From Candidatus Acidiferrales bacterium (GTDB lineage: Bacteria > Acidobacteriota > Terriglobia > Acidiferrales > UBA7541): a DNA stretch of 64,000 nt. The notes under the pieces were generated by a model. It saw nothing but the letters and a program-made list of their open reading frames with translations. It was not told where the DNA came from and searched no databases. Within the stretch, counting starts at the first letter, position 1, and every line of letters begins with the position of its first letter. The stretch spans positions 186,001-250,000 of the forward strand of contig DASYYH010000027.1 of the NCBI GenBank assembly GCA_035934015.1. The letters run 5' to 3'. Position numbers and translations under genes: made by a program. Shown one piece after another: positions 52,906 through 61,931 of this stretch.

Positions 52906-53124
52906 TCAGCCGTGATTCTCCTGATATTCCTCGTGCCAGGCCATCTGAATCGCTTCGAGCTTGCCTTCGTTCGAGGCGTTCGCATCGCCAGCGAATCCGT
53001 CAAGCTCGATCACCCATTTGCGCAAATCCGTGAATCGCACTGTGAGCGGATCAACATCCGGAAATTTTTCCGCCATCCGTATGCCAATTTCTTCCGCGTT
53101 GTCCCAGTCCAATGTTCCCGGCAT
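52906..53124 (-). CDS. iscX: Iron-sulfur assembly protein IscX
   Basis: A 72-residue acidic protein that binds IscS and modulates sulfur transfer or iron delivery. ATG 53124 is preferred (AGGAGA upstream), giving MPGTLDWDNAEEIGIRMAEK, which matches IscX. Conserved acidic surface residues and the RFTDLRKWV segment are present. It is last in the isc operon after fdx. Confidence 0.92.
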   Translation of the reverse strand: MPGTLDWDNAEEIGIRMAEKFPDVDPLTVRFTDLRKWVIELDGFAGDANASNEGKLEAIQMAWHEEYQENHG

Positions 53125-53189
53125 TTTCTCTCCTGTCGGAATTTGTCCGCGCCGATTTGCAGTTCGCAATTCAGACCTTGAGCGTTGCT

Positions 53190-53600
53190 TTAGTGCTCCG
53201 CTTCTTTCGCGTAATTTTTATTCCATGACGGAATTTCGACAACAATATCTTTGGTGCCGTCGGGCACGCACTGGCACCCCAAGCGCGATTTCGGCGTGAC
53301 GCCCGGCGCTTCATCCAACTGATCCAGTTCCGCATCCGTCGGCTCATTGCATGTTTCTAGGCCCTCGTGGACAATCACGTGGCACGTCGAGCACGCGCAC
53401 ACGCCGCCGCACGCGTGGTCCAGGCCCATGTGAAATCCCGTGGCGATGTCGAGAATGCTTCCCGGCAGACCATCGTGCCCGTAGGGAAATTTCGCCGGAT
53501 CAACTTCGACCGCCTTCCCTTCCTTCGCGAACGTCACCTTGAATTTCTGCGTCGCAGGAGTGTATTTGGTCTCTTCGATATAAGGATTTTTTCCGCCCAT
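53190..53600 (-). CDS. fdx: 2Fe-2S ferredoxin of the ISC system
   Basis: An adrenodoxin/plant-type [2Fe-2S] ferredoxin of 136 residues that supplies electrons for cluster assembly. The cluster ligands appear as the cysteines in DHACGGVCACSTCHV (Cys pattern C-x5-C-x2-C) and the later LGCQCVPDG; all four sites are present. The protein is slightly longer than typical Fdx because of an N-terminal stretch. It starts 11 bp after hscA stops, with an AGGAG site. Confidence 0.94.
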   Translation of the reverse strand: MGGKNPYIEETKYTPATQKFKVTFAKEGKAVEVDPAKFPYGHDGLPGSILDIATGFHMGLDHACGGVCACSTCHVIVHEGLETCNEPTDAELDQLDEAPGVTPKSRLGCQCVPDGTKDIVVEIPSWNKNYAKEAEH

Positions 53601-53610
53601 CGCCGTGCTC

Positions 53611-55452
53611 CTAGACTTCGTCGAGCTTTCGTCCGCCTACCGCCGCTTGCAGAGCCTTATTCATCGCCAATTCCGCCAAGTGCGCCGTCGCTTTGTTCAA
53701 CTCATCGGTGCGCTTGCGCACCAGTTTGTAATCCGTTCCCGCCGCTGCTTCGCGCAAGTGCTTCACCGCCGCGTCGATTTTCGCGCGCTCTTTCGCCGCG
53801 AGAGTTTGCGACTCTTCGCGCGCGAGCGTCTTCTCCGTCGCGCGCAAAATCGTCTCCGCCTCGTTCCGCGCTTCGATCAACTGCCGCTGCTGAAAATCCT
53901 GCTCCGCGAATTCGATGGACTCCTCGAGCATCCGCTCCATTTCCGTGTCCGTCAATCCGTAGCTCGGCTGCACTTCGAGAGAACTCTGCTCGCCGGTCCG
54001 CAAATCCTTCGCCGAGACTTGCAAAATCCCGTTCGCGTCGATCAGGAATTTCACTTCCACGCGCGCCAGCCCGGCGGGACCCGGCGGCATTTTCAACTGG
54101 AATCGCGAAAGCGAACGGCAATCCCGCGCCAATTCGCGCTCACCCTGCAAGATGTGAATGTCGATTCCCGTTTGATTGTCCACGCCGGTGGTGAACAATT
54201 CCTGCGCGCTCGCCGGAATCGTCGAGTTTCGCGGAATCAGCTTGGCCACCACGCCGCCCATCGTTTCGATGCCCAGCGACAGCGGCGTGACGTCGAGCAG
54301 CAGCATGTCCTTCACGCCGCTTTCGAGGATATTCGCCTGCACTGCCGCGCCGAGCGCCACGACTTCGTCGGGATTCAGCTCGCAATGCGGCGCGCGTCCG
54401 AAATAATCGCCGACGGTTTTGCGAACCAGCGGAATTCGGGTCGAGCCGCCAACGAGCACGACTTCATCGATTTCGGATGGTTTCAACTTTGCATCGGCGA
54501 GAGCCATTTTCACCGGCGCCATCGTGCGCGCGACGATTGGCTGAATCAGTTTGTCGAACTCCTCGCGCGTGATCTCGCGCGTGTAGACGCGCTCGTCTGG
54601 CAGCACGAACCGGATCGTCGCGCGTTCCGCGCTCGAAAGCTGATGCTTGGCGTGAATCAGAGCTTTGCGCAATTCCTGAACAGCTTCCGGATGCTTCGCG
54701 AGATCAATGGCAAACTTCCCCTCGATTTCTCCGCGCGCCGTGGCCGCGAGAGCGTTGTCGATGTCGTCGCCGCCGAGATGCGTGTCGCCGTTTGTGGACA
54801 GGACTTGATAGATGTCGCCCTCGGTGGTCGAAATCAATTTCAGGATCGAAATGTCAAACGTTCCTCCGCCGAAATCGTAGACTGCGACGCGGCCGCGCTT
54901 TTGCTTGTGCAATCCGTACGCAAGCGCCGCGGCCGTTGGCTCATTCACCAAGCGCAGAACTTCGAGTCCCGCCAGCCTTCCTGCATCTTTCGTCGCCTGC
55001 CGCTGCGCGTCATTGAAATACGCCGGCACGGTGATCACTGCGCGGTCCACCGTGTCCTTGAAAAATTCCTCGGCCCACGATTTCAGTTCCCGCAGAATAA
55101 AGGCGGAAATTTCCGGCGGCGTGAAATATTTGTCGCCGAGGCGGACACGAATCACGTTGCGCGAATTTTCATCGATGCGGAACGGGAAAATTTTCAATTC
55201 GTCGCGCACATCTTCGACACCGCGCCCCATGAGGCGCTTCACGGAATAAATCGTTCGCTCCGGCTGCGTCAGCAGGCGGCGGCGGGCGGGTTCGCCGGCG
55301 ATGACGGTTCCGTCGGCGTCGAGGCTGACCACGGAGGGGCAGAGGGTCTCGCCGTAAGGGCCCGGGATGCACCGCGGGGCACCCGTCGCAGGATCGACGA
55401 ACGCAATCAGGCTGAAGGTTGTGCCCAAATCAATCCCGACTGCTTTACCCAT
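53611..55452 (-). CDS. hscA: Hsp70-type chaperone HscA of the ISC system
   Basis: A 613-residue Hsp70. ATG 55452 starts [20 protein letters not shown] (GGGAAG upstream); the 12 codons before it are not family-like. The nucleotide-binding domain shows [20 protein letters not shown] and GGGTFDISI; the substrate-binding domain and C-terminal lid follow. With HscB it releases clusters from IscU by binding its LPPVK motif, which is present in IscU here. The spacer to hscB is 145 bp and contains a two-box element. Confidence 0.93.
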
Positions 55453-55506
55453 TTCTTCCCTCTCTGTCCCTCGAAGAGCGTTTGCCAAAAAACGTGCAAA
55501 AATTAT

Positions 55507-55597: not shown

Positions 55598-56296
55598 TCA
55601 GCTTTGCCCCAATTCCTCGCCGACACTGCGGACGAGATTGCGAATATAGGAGCGGCGATTGAGTACTTCGTTCAATTTGGCCATGACGGCACGCTGGGTC
55701 TGGTCGTCCGCGGCCGCGTCGATGGCAGCGTCCCATTCGCCGAAGACGCTTTGCAGTTCTGCGTCGACTTCGTCGAGCTTTTCCTGGAAATTTTTCCGGG
55801 CGTCGGCGAGGCGCGCGCGAAGCTCGGTTAAATCACCACCGTCTGCTTTCGCCTCGCGCAACTCGTCGAGCGATTCATTGAGTTCAAAAACTTCCTCGAG
55901 CAACTCTGGCGGAGCTTGCTGCTTGGTCGTGCCTTCCTTGCGCACGCCGGCGCGAAGGAGAAGATATTCGACGCGCAAGATGGGATCGCGCAACGTGCGA
56001 TAGGCGTCGTTCAATTCGGAGGAGCGCTCCAGGGCCAGATTCCGCTCGTATTCTGGTGCAGCGACGAAATTATCGGGATGCAATTTCCAGCTCAACTGAT
56101 GAAAGCGCTGCTCGAGACCGGGTTCGTCGATTTTCAATTTCCGCAGCAGTGCGAAAAATGCGAAGTAATCAACGTCGTCGCCGAGCGGCTGAATTTTCCC
56201 GCAGGCGGCACAGAAATGACCGCCTCCTGAGGAAGCCTTGCAGCTCCAACAGGAAAGCAAAGGCGCAGCCTCAGTTTGTGTTTTCGTAGCGCTCAT
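55598..56296 (-). CDS. hscB: Co-chaperone HscB with an N-terminal zinc-binding motif
   Basis: A J-domain protein of 232 residues that recruits HscA to IscU. The J domain has HPD at residues 73-75 (LSWKLHPDNF) and the C-terminal IscU-binding helical bundle is present. Unlike E. coli HscB, it has an N-terminal extension with Cys16, Cys19, Cys29 and Cys32 (CWSC and CAAC), a CxxC/CxxC zinc-type site like that of eukaryotic HSC20. It is longer than bacterial HscB (about 170). Confidence 0.93.
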   Translation of the reverse strand: MSATKTQTEAAPLLSCWSCKASSGGGHFCAACGKIQPLGDDVDYFAFFALLRKLKIDEPGLEQRFHQLSWKLHPDNFVAAPEYERNLALERSSELNDAYRTLRDPILRVEYLLLRAGVRKEGTTKQQAPPELLEEVFELNESLDELREAKADGGDLTELRARLADARKNFQEKLDEVDAELQSVFGEWDAAIDAAADDQTQRAVMAKLNEVLNRRSYIRNLVRSVGEELGQS

Positions 56297-56362: not shown

Positions 56363-56713
56363 TCACGCAGTGAAGGAGCTGCCGCAGCCGCAGTTTCGCG
56401 TCGCCTGCGGATTCTGAAAGATGAATCCCTGGCGTACGAGCGTCTCTTCGAAGTCCAGCGTGGTCTCCGAAAGATACAGAAAGCTCTTGGGGTCCACGAA
56501 GACGCGCGCGCCGTTCTCTTCAATCACTTTATCGCGATCGCGCGCATGCGTCTCCAGACGCATGGCGTAGGAAAGCCCCGAGCAGCCGCCGCCCTGCACG
56601 CCGACGCGCAGTCCGCCGGAGTCCGCGGGCACGCCTTCCCTGGCGAGCAATTCGCGGATTTTCTGCGCCGCTTTTTCGGTGACGCGGATCATGGGTTTTT
56701 GAACTGGCGGCAT
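56363..56713 (-). CDS. iscA: A-type iron-sulfur carrier IscA
   Basis: A 116-residue A-type scaffold/carrier. The conserved cysteines are Cys44 (GGGCSGLSY), Cys108 and Cys110 (NCGCGSSF). ATG 56713 or the in-frame ATG 56692 (MIRVTEKAAQKI) could be the start; the family N-terminus fits the second one. The gene sits between hscB and iscU; a 138-bp repeat-rich spacer separates it from iscU. Confidence 0.94.
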   Translation of the reverse strand: MPPVQKPMIRVTEKAAQKIRELLAREGVPADSGGLRVGVQGGGCSGLSYAMRLETHARDRDKVIEENGARVFVDPKSFLYLSETTLDFEETLVRQGFIFQNPQATRNCGCGSSFTA

Positions 56714-56851: not shown

Positions 56852-57283
56852 TCAGCTGTGCGACGCCTGCGTCGCGCTGGCTTCGGTCGTCGCGGACTCT
56901 TCGCCGGCCTTGTGCTTCCAATCGGAGATAGCCGCCTTGATGGCGTCCTCGGCGAGCACGGAGCAATGGATCTTCACCGGCGGAAGCGAAAGCTCGCGGA
57001 CGATGTCCGTGTTCTTGATGGCGAGCGCCTCTTCGACGGTCTTGCCGCGGACCCATTCGGTGGCGAGCGAAGAACTGGCAATCGCCGAGCCGCAGCCGAA
57101 GGTTTTGAACTTCGCTTCCTCGATGACGCGGGTATCGGGATTGATTTTCATCTGCAGCTTCATGACGTCGCCGCATTCCGGCGCGCCGACGAGGCCGGTG
57201 CCGACGTTTTTATCCTTCTTGTCGAGCGAGCCGACGTTGCGCGGATTATTGTAGTGATCGATCACTTTGTCCGAATAAGCCAT
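56852..57283 (-). CDS. iscU: Iron-sulfur cluster scaffold IscU
   Basis: A 143-residue scaffold. ATG 57283 (MAYSDKVIDHYNNPRN) is preferred, as GGAGG lies five bases upstream. Cluster ligands are Cys37, Asp39, Cys64 and Cys107; the HscA-binding motif LPPVK is at 100-104. An alanine/threonine-rich tail (residues about 125-143) is an extra. It should assemble clusters from IscS-derived sulfur. Repeat-rich spacers flank it on both sides. Confidence 0.95.
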   Translation of the reverse strand: MAYSDKVIDHYNNPRNVGSLDKKDKNVGTGLVGAPECGDVMKLQMKINPDTRVIEEAKFKTFGCGSAIASSSLATEWVRGKTVEEALAIKNTDIVRELSLPPVKIHCSVLAEDAIKAAISDWKHKAGEESATTEASATQASHS

Positions 57284-57295
57284 CATGCCCTCCAA

Positions 57296-57471: not shown

Positions 57472-58695
57472 TCACGCTGTTTTCCAATTCATTTTGCTGA
57501 CGTCGACGCCTTCTTCCTTGGCCATTTCGTAGAGCGGCGAAAGCTCGCGGAGACGCCTCACGGTCTCGACGACGCGATCGGCAACGTAGTCCACTTCTTC
57601 CTGCGTGTTGAACCGGCCCAGGCCAAAGCGAATCGAGGTATGCGCCAGATCTTCGCCGACGCCGAGGGCTTTTAGGACGTAACTTGGCTCGAGCGTCGCC
57701 GAAGTGCACGCGGAACCGCTGGACACGGCGACGTCGTTGATGCCCATCAGGAGCGACTCGCCTTCGACATAGGCGAAGCTGATATTGATGTTGTTGGGCA
57801 GATGATGCTCCATCGTGCCGTTGATGAATGTTTCGTCGAGCTGCGACATGATGCGCTCCTTCAGGCGGTCGCGCAGCGCGCCGAGCCGCTTGGCCTCTTC
57901 TTGCATCTCCAGGCGACAAAGTTCGCAGGCCTTGCCGAATCCGACGATTCCGGGCACGTTCAGCGTGCCGGAACGCATCCCGCGTTCGTGGCCGCCGCCA
58001 TCAATGATAGCGGTCAACTGCACGCGCGGATTCTTGCGGCGAACGTAGAGCGCGCCGACGCCCTTCGGGCCATAGAGCTTGTGCGCGGAAATGGAGAGCA
58101 GATCGATTCCATCTTTCTGCACATCCACTGGCACCTTGCCCACCGCCTGCACGCCATCGCTGTGGAAGAAAACGCCCTTCTCCTTGGCGATCTTGCCGAT
58201 TTCCGCGACCGGCTGAATGACGCCGATTTCGTTATTGGCGTACATGATGGTGATCAAAATCGTCTTCGGCGTGATGGCATTGCGCAGCTCGTCGAGGCTG
58301 ATGCGACCGTCCTTGCCCACGGGAAGGTAGGTCACTTCGTAGCCTTCTTTTTCGAGGCGCTTGCAGGTGTCGAGTATGGCCTTGTGTTCGGTGACCTGCG
58401 TGATGATGTGGTTGCCCTTTTCGCGGTACATCTCCGCGACGCCCTTGATGGCCAGATTGTCGGATTCGGTGGCGCCGCTGGTGAAGACGATCTCCTTCGG
58501 CGTCGCGCCGATGAGCTGCGCTACCTGCGCGCGCGCGTTTTCGACTCCCTCTTCGGCCGACCATCCGAAAGCATGATTGCGGCTGGCGGCGTTTCCGAAT
58601 ACTTCGGTGAAGTATGGCGTCATGGCGGCGACAACGCGCGGATCCACCGGCGTGGTCGCATGATTATCCATATAAATCGGCAGCTTGATTCCCAT
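57472..58695 (-). CDS. iscS: Cysteine desulfurase IscS
   Basis: A PLP enzyme of 407 residues that converts cysteine to alanine and a persulfide. ATG 58695 is preferred because AGGAG lies six bases upstream; an ATG at 58701 is too close to it. N-terminal [23 protein letters not shown]-binding lysine in [12 protein letters not shown] and active-site loop [12 protein letters not shown] with the catalytic cysteine are intact. It follows iscR with a hairpin-bearing 85-bp spacer. Confidence 0.96.
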
Positions 58696-58721
58696 TCTCA
58701 TCTCCTAGATTTTCGTAATGC

Positions 58722-58773
58722 GTCAGTTTGAATTTTGACTCTTTGTGTCACGATCAAGAAAATTCAAACTGAC
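58722..58773 (-). promoter_or_regulatory. Long perfect inverted repeat between iscR and iscS
   Basis: Arms of 15 bp match perfectly (58722-58736 with 58759-58773), separated by a 22-bp loop. In the transcript this would form a stable hairpin between the iscR stop and the iscS ribosome site. No T tract follows, so it is not an ordinary terminator. Confidence 0.7.
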
Positions 58774-58780
58774 CCATGGC

Positions 58781-59218
58781 CTAAATTCGCAGCTCGACCA
58801 CCTCGGAAGCCGGGGCGTCGTCCGCCATCTGTGAAATCGTTACTTTGCTCAACATTTCGAGAATGCTGTTGTTCACTTTGCGCAGCGGTTCTTTGATGGT
58901 GCACGTTTTGGACTGCTCGCAGTTTCCGTGATGCGTGACGCAGGACGTGAGCGACAACGGGCCGTCGATGGCGTCAATGGCTTCGAGGGCGGTGATCAGC
59001 CGCGCATCGCGCGCCAATGTGTAGCCACCGCTCGAACCGTGCCGCGCGACGACGATTCCCACGCGCGCCAGCCGCTGCAGAACCTTGGCCATCAATGGCG
59101 TGGAGATGCCGTACGCTTCGGCGATGTCCGCTGCGCTGCACGAGCCTTCCTCGGCGTGCAAGGCAAGATGCTTCAAAGCGATCAGCGCGTAATCGGATTT
59201 TTTCGACAGTTTCAGCAT
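58781..59218 (-). CDS. iscR: Iron-sulfur-responsive transcriptional regulator IscR (Rrf2 family)
   Basis: A 145-residue Rrf2-family winged-helix repressor. It starts MLKLSKKSDYALIALKHLAL, the family N-terminus, and has the recognition helix near 38-50 (SAADIAEAYGISTPLMAKVL). Three cysteines at 93, 100 and 106 (SCVTHHGNCEQSKTC) fit a [2Fe-2S] ligand set like IscR. It is divergent from a thioredoxin-like gene, and a type-2-like operator lies across its start region, so it should autoregulate the operon. Confidence 0.94.
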   Translation of the reverse strand: MLKLSKKSDYALIALKHLALHAEEGSCSAADIAEAYGISTPLMAKVLQRLARVGIVVARHGSSGGYTLARDARLITALEAIDAIDGPLSLTSCVTHHGNCEQSKTCTIKEPLRKVNNSILEMLSKVTISQMADDAPASEVVELRI

Positions 59219-59230
59219 GTCGTCGCGACC

Positions 59231-59255
59231 ATATACGACTGCTCAAGTCGCATAT
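59231..59255 (-). promoter_or_regulatory. Type-2-like IscR operator
   Basis: The dyad ATATACGACT-GCTCA-AGTCGCATAT (plus strand) has 10-bp arms with one mismatch and a 5-bp spacer. Read on the minus strand it fits the E. coli type-2 framework ATA-N3-GACT-N5-AGTC-N3-TAT at every fixed position. It covers the predicted transcription start and upstream part of the iscR leader. Confidence 0.7.
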
Positions 59256-59257
59256 TT

Positions 59258-59287
59258 ATATTAGGCCTTTTCTCCTGGGGTTGTCAA
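59258..59287 (-). promoter_or_regulatory. Sigma70-type promoter of the isc operon
   Basis: Minus strand TTGACA (59287-59282), 18-bp spacer, TAATAT (59263-59258). The operator directly downstream would block it. Confidence 0.65.
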
Positions 59288-59473
59288 GAGCTAGATTTGA
59301 AGCAAACCTATTGCTAACATGCAGTTAAATCAGGACTAATTGAGTCCAATTTGGCTGGTTTGGTTCGCACAGCGAACGGCAATTTGGCGCGGTTGAATGG
59401 CAAACTTTCGGCGTCGAACCGTCATTTCTATTGCCACCGCCAAAACCCATTTTTCCGGCTCGCGAGCGGAGTT

Positions 59474-60504: not shown

Positions 60505-60954
60505 ATGACGCGATTCATCAAAAAGCCGACTGAGGACGCGACCGACTCGCCAATTGGGCTGTTCGACCTTGGGCAGCTCGAACTCGGCGTTATGGAAATT
60601 CTCTGGCGGCGGGGAGAATCAAGCGTTCGCGACGTGGTGGGGAAAATCGCGCGGCCTCTGGCGTATACCACCGTAATGACCACGCTCGACCGGCTGTATA
60701 AAAAGAATCTGCTGGAACGGCGCAAGTCAGAGCGCGCATTCCTTTATTCTCCGCGACTCTCGCGCGCGGATTGGGAACGCAAACGCGCCGGCAATCTGGT
60801 CGCAGGATTCCTGGGAGGCACGCAGCCTTTGCGTGACCTTCTGATTTCCTGTCTTGTTGATGCCGTGGGCGAAAACGACCGGGCGCTGCTCGACGAGCTG
60901 GAAAAGAAAGTCCGCGAACGGCGGAAGGAACTTTTCCGAAGAGGGCGCTCATGA
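60505..60954 (+). CDS. BlaI/MecI/CopY-family transcriptional repressor
   Basis: A winged-helix repressor of 149 residues. The HTH core is GQLELGVMEILWRRGESSVR followed by YTTVMTTLDRLYKKNLLERR, the family signature. The C-terminal half should be the dimerisation helix bundle. BlaI-type repressors are removed by cleavage triggered by BlaR1. The gene overlaps the M56 gene by 4 bp (ATGA). Confidence 0.93.
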   Translation: MTRFIKKPTEDATDSPIGLFDLGQLELGVMEILWRRGESSVRDVVGKIARPLAYTTVMTTLDRLYKKNLLERRKSERAFLYSPRLSRADWERKRAGNLVAGFLGGTQPLRDLLISCLVDAVGENDRALLDELEKKVRERRKELFRRGRS

Positions 60955-61931
60955 CACTGCCCTATGCGCTCCGGCTTCTCTGCCTCTGCTTCGCCGCATT
61001 TTTCCTGATTCATGCGGCACTGAGCCTACTGGTTCGTTTTTTTTCGCCGGCAGCGATTCGTTTGAGCGAATCCGTGCGTCCGCGCCTCGCCGCACGCGTT
61101 CTTTTTTTTCTGCGGCTGACGCCTTTTGTTTTGACCATTTTCGCCGTGGCGGCCTTCTGCATACCAAGCTATCTGTGGTTTGAAGCCAATGCCGCTCCTG
61201 AACAAGTCGGCATCCTTTGTGTCTTCGCCGCGATCCTCGGACTCGCGACTTGGCTTTCGTCCATCAGCCGCGTCGCTTCCGCGTGGTTCAAGTCGCGCCG
61301 CAATCTGCGGCATTGGGAGCGCTCTTCTCTCAGAAGACAAATTGGAGGTGAAGATTCGCGCGTCCTCGTCGTGGCCAGCGAAGCCCCGCTGCTGGCGCTC
61401 GCTGGCGTCATTCGCCCGCGCATTTTCGTCGCCAATCGTCTGTTGCACGCTTTGCCGCCGGAACAACTGGATGCCGCTTTGCGCCACGAGCGCGGGCATA
61501 CCGTCTCGCACGATAATCTCAAGCGTCTCGTTCTTCTTTTCGCTCCGGGAATTCTGCCCTTCTTCCGCGGCTCTTGGCTGCTTGATCGTTCCTGGGCGCG
61601 ATTCTCCGAATTGGCCGCTGACGATTTCGCGGTCGCGGGCGATTCCTATCGGTCGCTTTCTCTTGCTGCTGCGCTTGTTCGCGCTGCGCAACTGGGTTCC
61701 TCTCCGGCCATTTCACCATTCGCCAGTTCCCTGCTTGCCAGCGCCAGCGATCTCTCCGAACGCGTTGACCGCCTTCTCGGCGCGCAGCGGCCGGTTCGTT
61801 CGTTGCACAAAGGAACGCATTTCTTTTTTGCCGGCGCTGGTCTCGCCGCGCTCATTCTTCTGATTGCCGCCCTGTCGCGGCCCGAAACCTTTCATTCTGT
61901 TCACAGCCTCCTCGAACTTCTCATTCACTAA
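60951..61931 (+). CDS. M56-family (BlaR1-like) membrane peptidase without a sensor domain
   Basis: A 326-residue protein with several TM helices. The zinc motif HERGH is in LRHERGHTVSHDN near residue 180-184, and the SELAADDFAVAGDSYRS segment follows, typical of BlaR1 M56 domains. The C-terminal penicillin-binding sensor found in Staphylococcus BlaR1 is missing, so the sensed signal differs. It should cleave the co-encoded BlaI-like repressor. Confidence 0.88.
   Translation: MTLPYALRLLCLCFAAFFLIHAALSLLVRFFSPAAIRLSESVRPRLAARVLFFLRLTPFVLTIFAVAAFCIPSYLWFEANAAPEQVGILCVFAAILGLATWLSSISRVASAWFKSRRNLRHWERSSLRRQIGGEDSRVLVVASEAPLLALAGVIRPRIFVANRLLHALPPEQLDAALRHERGHTVSHDNLKRLVLLFAPGILPFFRGSWLLDRSWARFSELAADDFAVAGDSYRSLSLAAALVRAAQLGSSPAISPFASSLLASASDLSERVDRLLGAQRPVRSLHKGTHFFFAGAGLAALILLIAALSRPETFHSVHSLLELLIH

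Follow-up and report, generated by a model that had tools for sequence, protein, structure and literature searches.

Two GAC-N7-GTC dyads at the isc promoter of a Candidatus Acidiferrales bacterium, probable operators of the adjacent RisR-like Rrf2 regulator

The Rrf2-family regulators used for comparison here are Escherichia coli IscR, Myxococcus xanthus RisR, Streptomyces coelicolor NsrR (ScNsrR) and the Xanthomonas-type regulator behind the model TIGR02944. E. coli IscR, which reportedly controls over 40 genes (PMC5411485), has type 1 sites with the consensus ATASYYGACTRWWWYAGTCRRSTAT (PMC3899308) and type 2 sites with the consensus xxWWWWCCxYAxxxxxxxTRxGGWWWWxx (PMC4055776), the former being specific to [2Fe-2S]-IscR and the latter accepting both forms of the protein (PMC12594620). 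Glu43 is reported to contact the CC bases of type 2 sites, the E43A exchange to let apo-IscR gain binding to type 1 sites, and the recognition helix of ScNsrR to contain Ala44-Lys45 (PMC5411485). According to PMC9973013, the RisR holo-protein represses isc in M. xanthus, and its footprint on a GAC-N7-GTC site covers most of the −10 element as well as the putative isc start. The same source assigns RisR to the Rrf2 group IS6, which includes Acidobacteria, mixes ISC- and SUF-linked members and contains regulators that switched between the two systems, and it describes RisR sites as diverging from IscR sites. For Acidobacteria, no studied case of an operator in Fe-S homeostasis was found in the literature searched, which was largely without subscription papers.

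The window analyzed here (the whole stretch of 64,000 nucleotides from a Candidatus Acidiferrales assembly) holds an isc cluster on the reverse strand, headed by an Rrf2-family regulator gene and preceded by two operator-like dyads, O1 (proximal) and O2 (distal), as listed in Table 1. The host had been taken for an acidobacterium in the initial annotation, and the closest named loci indeed belong to Candidatus Acidiferrales MAGs. The genome encodes two Rrf2 proteins, and the SufB/D core was not found in it by a search that was positive in 14/14 control genomes. The 79-nt gap between the regulator gene and iscS contains a 52-bp palindromic element (58722–58773; 15-nt arms GTCAGTTTGAATTTT / AAAATTCAAACTGAC), which is a REP/MITE-like repeat with four exact-arm copies in the genome and 13 arm pairs lying 36 nt apart at no more than one mismatch per arm; its loop carries a GAC-N7-GTC core without the operator flanks. 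The same gap measures only about 3–12 nt, depending on the iscS start, in relatives (L179/L196 and L180/L197). On the forward strand, a penicillinase-repressor gene (BlaI/MecI type, PF03965) is followed by a membrane-protein ORF resembling a BlaR1-type peptidase (60505–61931).

Table 1. Features of the isc promoter and operon, in window coordinates
Feature	Position	Strand	Remarks
O1, proximal operator	59231–59255	−	ATATGCGACTTGAGCAGTCGTATAT; single exact framework match in the assembly; position kept in L016–L022
−10 hexamer	59258–59263	−	TAATAT; aligns with TAGAAT/TAAAAT/TATTAT/TACACT in relatives
−35 hexamer	59282–59287	−	TTGACA; spacer of 18; TTGAC retained in relatives
O2, distal operator	59328–59352	−	AAATTGGACTCAATTAGTCCTGATT; contains TGGACTCAATTAGTCCT; distal core 96–105 bp upstream of O1 in 15/15 loci of the order
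Rrf2-family regulator, first isc gene	58781–59218	−	145 aa; Cys93, Cys100, Cys106, Asp9
iscS, cysteine desulfurase	57472–58701	−	NF010611, 661.9 bits (cut-off 548)
iscU, scaffold	56852–57295	−	TIGR01999, 217.8 bits (cut-off 192.4)
iscA-type carrier	56363–56713	−	TIGR00049; below the IscA equivalog cut-off
hscB, co-chaperone	55598–56296	−	TIGR00714
hscA, chaperone	53611–55488	−	TIGR01991
fdx, isc-type ferredoxin	53190–53600	−	best match TIGR02007, below the cut-off
iscX	52906–53169	−	TIGR03412

The initial annotation had placed a 25-bp dyad directly behind the −10 hexamer and read it as an autoregulatory IscR type 2 operator over the isc start. Both the dyad and its place were confirmed: O1 matches the framework that had been quoted, ATA-N3-GACT-N5-AGTC-N3-TAT, with zero mismatches (the three other matches in the window have three mismatches each), starts 2 nt past the −10 of a TTGACA-18-TAATAT promoter and ends 12 nt short of the start codon of the regulator (59218), so that the predicted isc start site, at about 59251, would fall inside it. 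Its arms agree at 9 of 10 positions, a value reached in 1.3% of 2000 first-order Markov resamplings of the 255-bp intergenic region. Across the whole assembly (3.37 Mb, 98.6% complete) the framework has a single exact match, which is O1, and one other place with two mismatches; the reversed-pattern control gave one place. Seven further loci of the clade (L016–L022) have a TTGACA or TTGACT −35, a −10 and the operator, and the −10-to-operator distance is unchanged among them. Autoregulation gains from this kept place after the −10 and from a conservation far above chance, and we hold it as probable. The proximal operator ends 3–4 nt ahead of the start codon in L019–L022 and overlaps it in L177, which leaves no space for a usual ribosome-binding site; the leader of these relatives would be very short.

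The type 2 label did not hold, as the quoted framework is that of type 1. Against the type 2 consensus, O1 has mismatches at 6 and O2 at 9 of the 16 specified positions, and against the full degenerate type 1 consensus (25 positions) the counts are 7 and 8, with all seven of O1 falling outside the fixed ATA, GACT, AGTC and TAT. The region upstream of iscR in E. coli K-12 contains ATACCCGACTAAATCAGTCAAGTAA, which has one mismatch to the same framework. Both dyads consist of GAC-N7-GTC with AT-rich flanks, as described for operators of RisR and of Rrf2 group IS6; O2 agrees with the RisR consensus T[t/g]GAC-N7-GTCC[t/a] at every position, and O1 fits the core only, missing 3–4 positions outside it. 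The GAC-N7-GTC frame is common to distant Rrf2 groups, though PMC9973013 calls RisR sites divergent from those of IscR. The relabelling matters since it reverses the prediction, the cluster-loaded protein and not the apo-protein now being the expected repressor.

O2 was absent from the initial annotation and lies 97 bp upstream of O1. Fifteen loci of the order were compared, eight recruited by protein identity (the window and L016–L022) and seven through an exact pattern match (L176, L177, L178, L183, L186, L189, and L194). O1 and O2 are both present in all 15, separated by 96–98 bp in 12 loci and by 101–105 bp in three, and the register between O1 and the promoter is constant, by eye, within 1 nt. 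A second promoter ahead of O2 was not recognised by eye in the window; TTGAC-like and GAAT/GGAT-like elements precede O2, again by eye, in L176, L177, and L194. Across the phylum set, the distances between sites fall into clusters at 19, 24–27, 31–35, 51–52, and 97–98, with single values of 63, 71, 112, and 121; they do not follow one helical phase, so looping is no more than a possible arrangement. A different multi-site layout from the same phylum is seen in L025 and L090, where three tandem operator-like dyads stand before isc at every 19 bp. Just upstream of O2, heptamers of the form CCRTTCR recur every 21 bp (59373–59400 and 59415–59421, the third copy being CGGTTCG); pairs of CCRTTCR at about 21 or 42 bp occur in 5/15 loci of the order versus 0/89 other acidobacterial upstream regions, and these repeats are possibly a tandem activator site in the closest relatives of the window.

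A scan of the genome for the same dyad, which the initial annotation had proposed as a check, was run with patterns and returned only this promoter at zero mismatches. The pattern AWNNNSGACYNNNNNRGTCSNNNWT has two exact matches in the genome, O1 and O2 (reversed pattern: 0 at zero mismatches), and no exact sites were found elsewhere in the assembly by this pattern scan, which degenerate sites could escape. One-mismatch places number 13, i.e., 15 together with the two exact ones versus 18 for the reversed-pattern control, and a wider regulon in the own genome was rejected, given that these places are no more frequent than in the control. Reading frames were inspected around eight of the 13 (L160–L167), two of which looked attractive. 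The L165 site, a weak lead, precedes an Aconitase_C gene reading as leuD by about 50 bp. The L167 site, upstream of an alcohol dehydrogenase gene, was set aside as an operator candidate, since it looks like the loop of the repeated palindromic element and has one of the arms of this repeat 3 bp away.

When 21 genomes (the own and 20 relatives) were scanned, 28 exact places were obtained versus 18 for the control. Of these, 17 are at the regulator gene (the two of the window, 13 recognised by tblastn, L147, and one at a contig end recognised by its neighbouring gene) and 11 are elsewhere, a number within the control total of 18. One of the 11, the near-perfect site ATATAGGACTATAAGAGTCGTATAT (L191 1999–2023, G400:C49), lies about 200 bp upstream of a PF00291 (PALP) gene that reads like a cysteine synthase; found in a single genome, it is only a lead, through which sulfur supply may possibly be linked to the regulator in one relative. 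With no exact sites elsewhere in the own genome and the others at control level, the regulator looks local, unlike E. coli IscR, and judging from sequence its regulon is probably a single operon.

Conservation was assessed on 11 acidobacterial loci among 50 named ones together with those from a search of 396 Acidobacteriota genomes (152 with a match), the acidobacterial set comprising 101 loci including the window: 92 with an iscS-like gene, seven with sufB, and two with neither. Of the 92 isc-linked loci, 74 (70 of 87 without near-duplicates) carry the GAC-N7-GTC core no more than 160 nt upstream of the regulator, as compared to 3.1 on average and 9 at most in first-order resampling of the 87 loci (200 runs). 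Other spacers (N3–N14) were found in 0–8 of these 87 loci, and among the 63 other inverted triplets the most frequent reached 13. The strict 25-bp pattern with all flanks is present in 40/92 loci. Eighteen isc-linked loci have no core within 160 nt, and for four of them (L079, L111, L141, and L152) the upstream stretch looks, by eye, like the tail of another gene. Outside Acidobacteria, the core was found within 400 nt in only 5 of 39 more distant loci (L027, L038, L056, L060, and L063), so it is not a general property of Rrf2 neighbours.

The logo of 108 unique sites, in which GAC and GTC are fixed by the search, reproduces the AT-flanked 25-bp frame, with A and A/T at −12 and −11, T at −9 and C/G at −7 in the left half, and mostly G at +7, G/T at +8, A at +9, and A/T and T at +11 and +12 in the right half. 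The 74 loci have one site (40 loci), two (31), three (2), or four (1) within 160 nt. Under strict promoter scoring, a promoter and a site were scored together in 19/92 loci; the centre of the nearest site lies 14–24 nt after the first −10 base in 16 of them, eight of these being the loci of the clade, and precedes that base by 8 nt in three.

An orthologous regulator heads suf instead of isc in seven loci (L117, L136, L143, L150, L151, L154, and L156). SufB scores above the TIGR01980 cut-off in 7/7, and the gap between the regulator and sufB, measured in six, is about 330–440 nt, that of L117 holding an IscA/SufA-type gene. All seven carry GAC-N7-GTC in the 160 nt ahead of the regulator, which shows that the site follows the regulator and not the isc genes. 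One genome (G028) has two regulator copies, one at suf with a site (L117) and one at isc with no site in 160 nt (L152). A search for IscU in eight genomes (G014, G028, G134, G151, G175, G277, G293, and G362) gave a single match above the TIGR01999 cut-off, in G028, while six genomes had only partial matches below 55 bits and G277 had one of 110 bits and one partial; IscU above this cut-off was thus not found in 6/7 suf-linked genomes, G028 being the seventh. The operator appears to have moved along with IS6-type regulators between ISC and SUF, which fits the statement on regulator switching in PMC9973013 and adds the DNA site to it.

The name IscR given to the regulator in the initial annotation proved too specific. 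The protein belongs to the Rrf2 superfamily (PF02082, 116 bits, cut-off 30), and the only equivalog model it passes is TIGR02944, the SUF system Fe-S cluster assembly regulator (116.1 bits, above 110.65); it fails both IscR models (TIGR02010, 79.4 of 207.55 bits; PRK10857, 70.4 of 275) and is also far below the models for NsrR (68.4 of 182 bits), RirA, and CymR. An AlphaFold2 model with a mean pLDDT of 84 shows the Rrf2 fold and comes near solved structures including CymR, T. potens IscR, RsrR, E. coli IscR, and NsrR. The phylogenetic tree, with long branches, open forks and weak deep support, was used only for the separation from E. coli IscR and NsrR, and apart from these two it places the window protein with Acidobacteria and one Nitrospinota protein.

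The three cysteines are kept in 92/92 orthologues, with an x6-x5 spacing in the window protein and 84/92 (the first loop is x7 in six, x9 in one and x5 in one), and the position of ScNsrR Asp8 is occupied by Asp in 90/92. The position of ScNsrR Arg12, the residue linking Asp8 and the recognition helix, is Ile in the window protein by an ungapped reading, and the column of IscR His107 holds Arg in 51 and Lys in 41 of the 92. The columns of IscR Ser40, Glu43, and Gln44 read Pro, Ala, and Lys in the window protein; among the orthologues, 88 have Ala and four have Ser in the Glu43 column, and 92/92 have Lys in the Gln44 column. Gln (40), Ala (36), and His (13) account for 89/92 residues in the Arg59 column, where neither Arg nor Lys occurs, and the window protein has an Arg one residue before it. 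The wing motif Gx2GGx2L (G61, G64, G65, and L68) is invariant in 28 sequences. With Ala or Ser in the Glu43 column, the acidobacterial proteins are without the residue that keeps the apo-protein off type 1 sites in E. coli (PMC5411485), so release of O1 by the apo-form would require another kind of switch, e.g., the recognition-helix movement proposed for ScNsrR.

Set beside RisR as described in PMC9973013, the locus has the same GAC-N7-GTC core with AT-rich flanks and the same placement of the site over the −10/start of isc, and the proteins have in common three Cys, the Gx2GGx2L wing and the absence of Ser40, Glu43, and Gln44 of IscR. The RisR gene, however, adjoins suf and controls both isc and suf, whereas here the regulator heads isc in a genome without detected SufB/D; RisR has a Cys spacing of x9-x5 (C92, C102, and C108) instead of x6-x5, keeps the minor-groove wing residue Arg59 of IscR, which the window protein does not, and its isc promoter differs from the present one with two sites 97 bp apart. 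E. coli IscR resembles the window protein in being encoded by the first gene of the order iscR-S-U-A-hscB-hscA-fdx-iscX, in the Rrf2 fold and in the fixed type 1 bases of the operator, and differs by the replaced His107, Glu43, and Gln44 columns and by the scores below both IscR models. TIGR02944 is named for suf, but the gene that passes its cut-off here stands beside isc. ScNsrR shares Ala-Lys in the recognition helix (A44 and K45 there) and Asp at the position of the fourth ligand, but it has another operator and other targets, and the window protein is far below the NsrR cut-off.

O1 is very probably, on the sequence evidence above, the promoter-proximal one of two operators by which the adjacent RisR-like Rrf2 Fe-S regulator represses its own isc operon. 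Counting against this reading are the 18 isc-linked loci with no core in 160 nt, the fit of the strict pattern to only 40/92, the scarcity of the core outside Acidobacteria, the changed Arg59 and Arg12 positions, and a second Rrf2 protein in the genome. Another protein could bind there, e.g., the second Rrf2 protein of the genome (contig C16), which has three Cys and an IscR-like Glu-Gln pair in its recognition helix (YLEQ); we consider this very improbable, as the sites accompany the gene of the adjacent regulator at isc and at suf, and the 200 bp upstream of the second protein's own gene contain no GAC-N7-GTC. The dyad could also act in RNA, as a hairpin or attenuator of the 5′ leader with no protein site involved, given that O1 would sit in the leader with 9/10 arm positions pairable and that a weak terminator-like call was obtained, on the opposite (+) strand only. 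However, the observed and expected pairing frequencies are close to each other (0.44/0.40 at ±7, 0.32/0.32 at ±8, 0.62/0.54 at ±9, and 0.44/0.46 at ±11) and G faces G at ±7 in 30 of the 108 sites; without covariation between facing positions, the dyad shows the behaviour of a DNA operator. No transcript from this promoter would include O2, which is located upstream of the −35, and a site overlaps the −10 in three loci. The hairpin reading, very improbable, was rejected on the lack of covariation and the position of O2.

A true IscR type 2 site, bindable by the apo-protein, would likewise present a general Rrf2 dyad with AT-rich flanks, but this reading was rejected on the mismatch counts for O1 and O2; the Glu43 replacement throughout the 92 orthologues speaks against it as well, and it is extremely improbable. 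A chance dyad near the promoter has next to no probability: the resampled intergenic regions do reach the same arm agreement at the low rate given above, but conservation in relatives refutes it, and the site occurs once in the genome.

For repression by the adjacent regulator, the most likely mechanism, by analogy, is that of RisR, with a holo-dimer on O1 occluding RNA polymerase. The cluster-loaded dimer would occupy O1 and block the polymerase from opening or leaving the promoter; its cluster is probably [4Fe-4S], with Cys93, Cys100, and Cys106 as ligands and possibly a fourth one in Asp9 of the partner subunit. Upon cluster shortage or oxidation, the apo-form would release the operator and isc would be derepressed. 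O2 probably strengthens repression in a cooperative or looped manner, or else may serve a second promoter that is recognisable only in some relatives.

A wider joint reading is put forward tentatively, as one we hold to be possible but somewhat doubtful. An operator code, roughly AWnTn-S-GACY-N5-RGTC-S-nAnWT, would be common to Rrf2 lineages that stand far apart in phylogeny (E. coli IscR type 1, RisR, and the acidobacterial regulators) despite different base-reading residues (Glu43 to Ala, Gln44 to Lys, Ser40 replaced) and probably a different cluster. On this view, the ancestral way of binding in Rrf2 proteins would be that of type 1, with type 2 an addition needing Glu43, regulator and operator would shift as a unit between ISC and SUF operons in Acidobacteria, and the second operator at a nearly constant 96–105 bp in the order of the window would make up a two-operator repression module. 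A description of such a module in this family was not found in the literature searched, again largely without subscription papers.

The arrangement proposed here is ordinary in kind. What the locus offers for Fe-S cluster homeostasis in Acidobacteria is an operator open to testing, together with its probable regulator and a regulon that is probably one operon, in a genome context where ISC was found and SufB/D was not. Sites recognised by proteins that have Ala where E. coli IscR has Glu43 would, moreover, provide natural material on how Rrf2 proteins select site classes.
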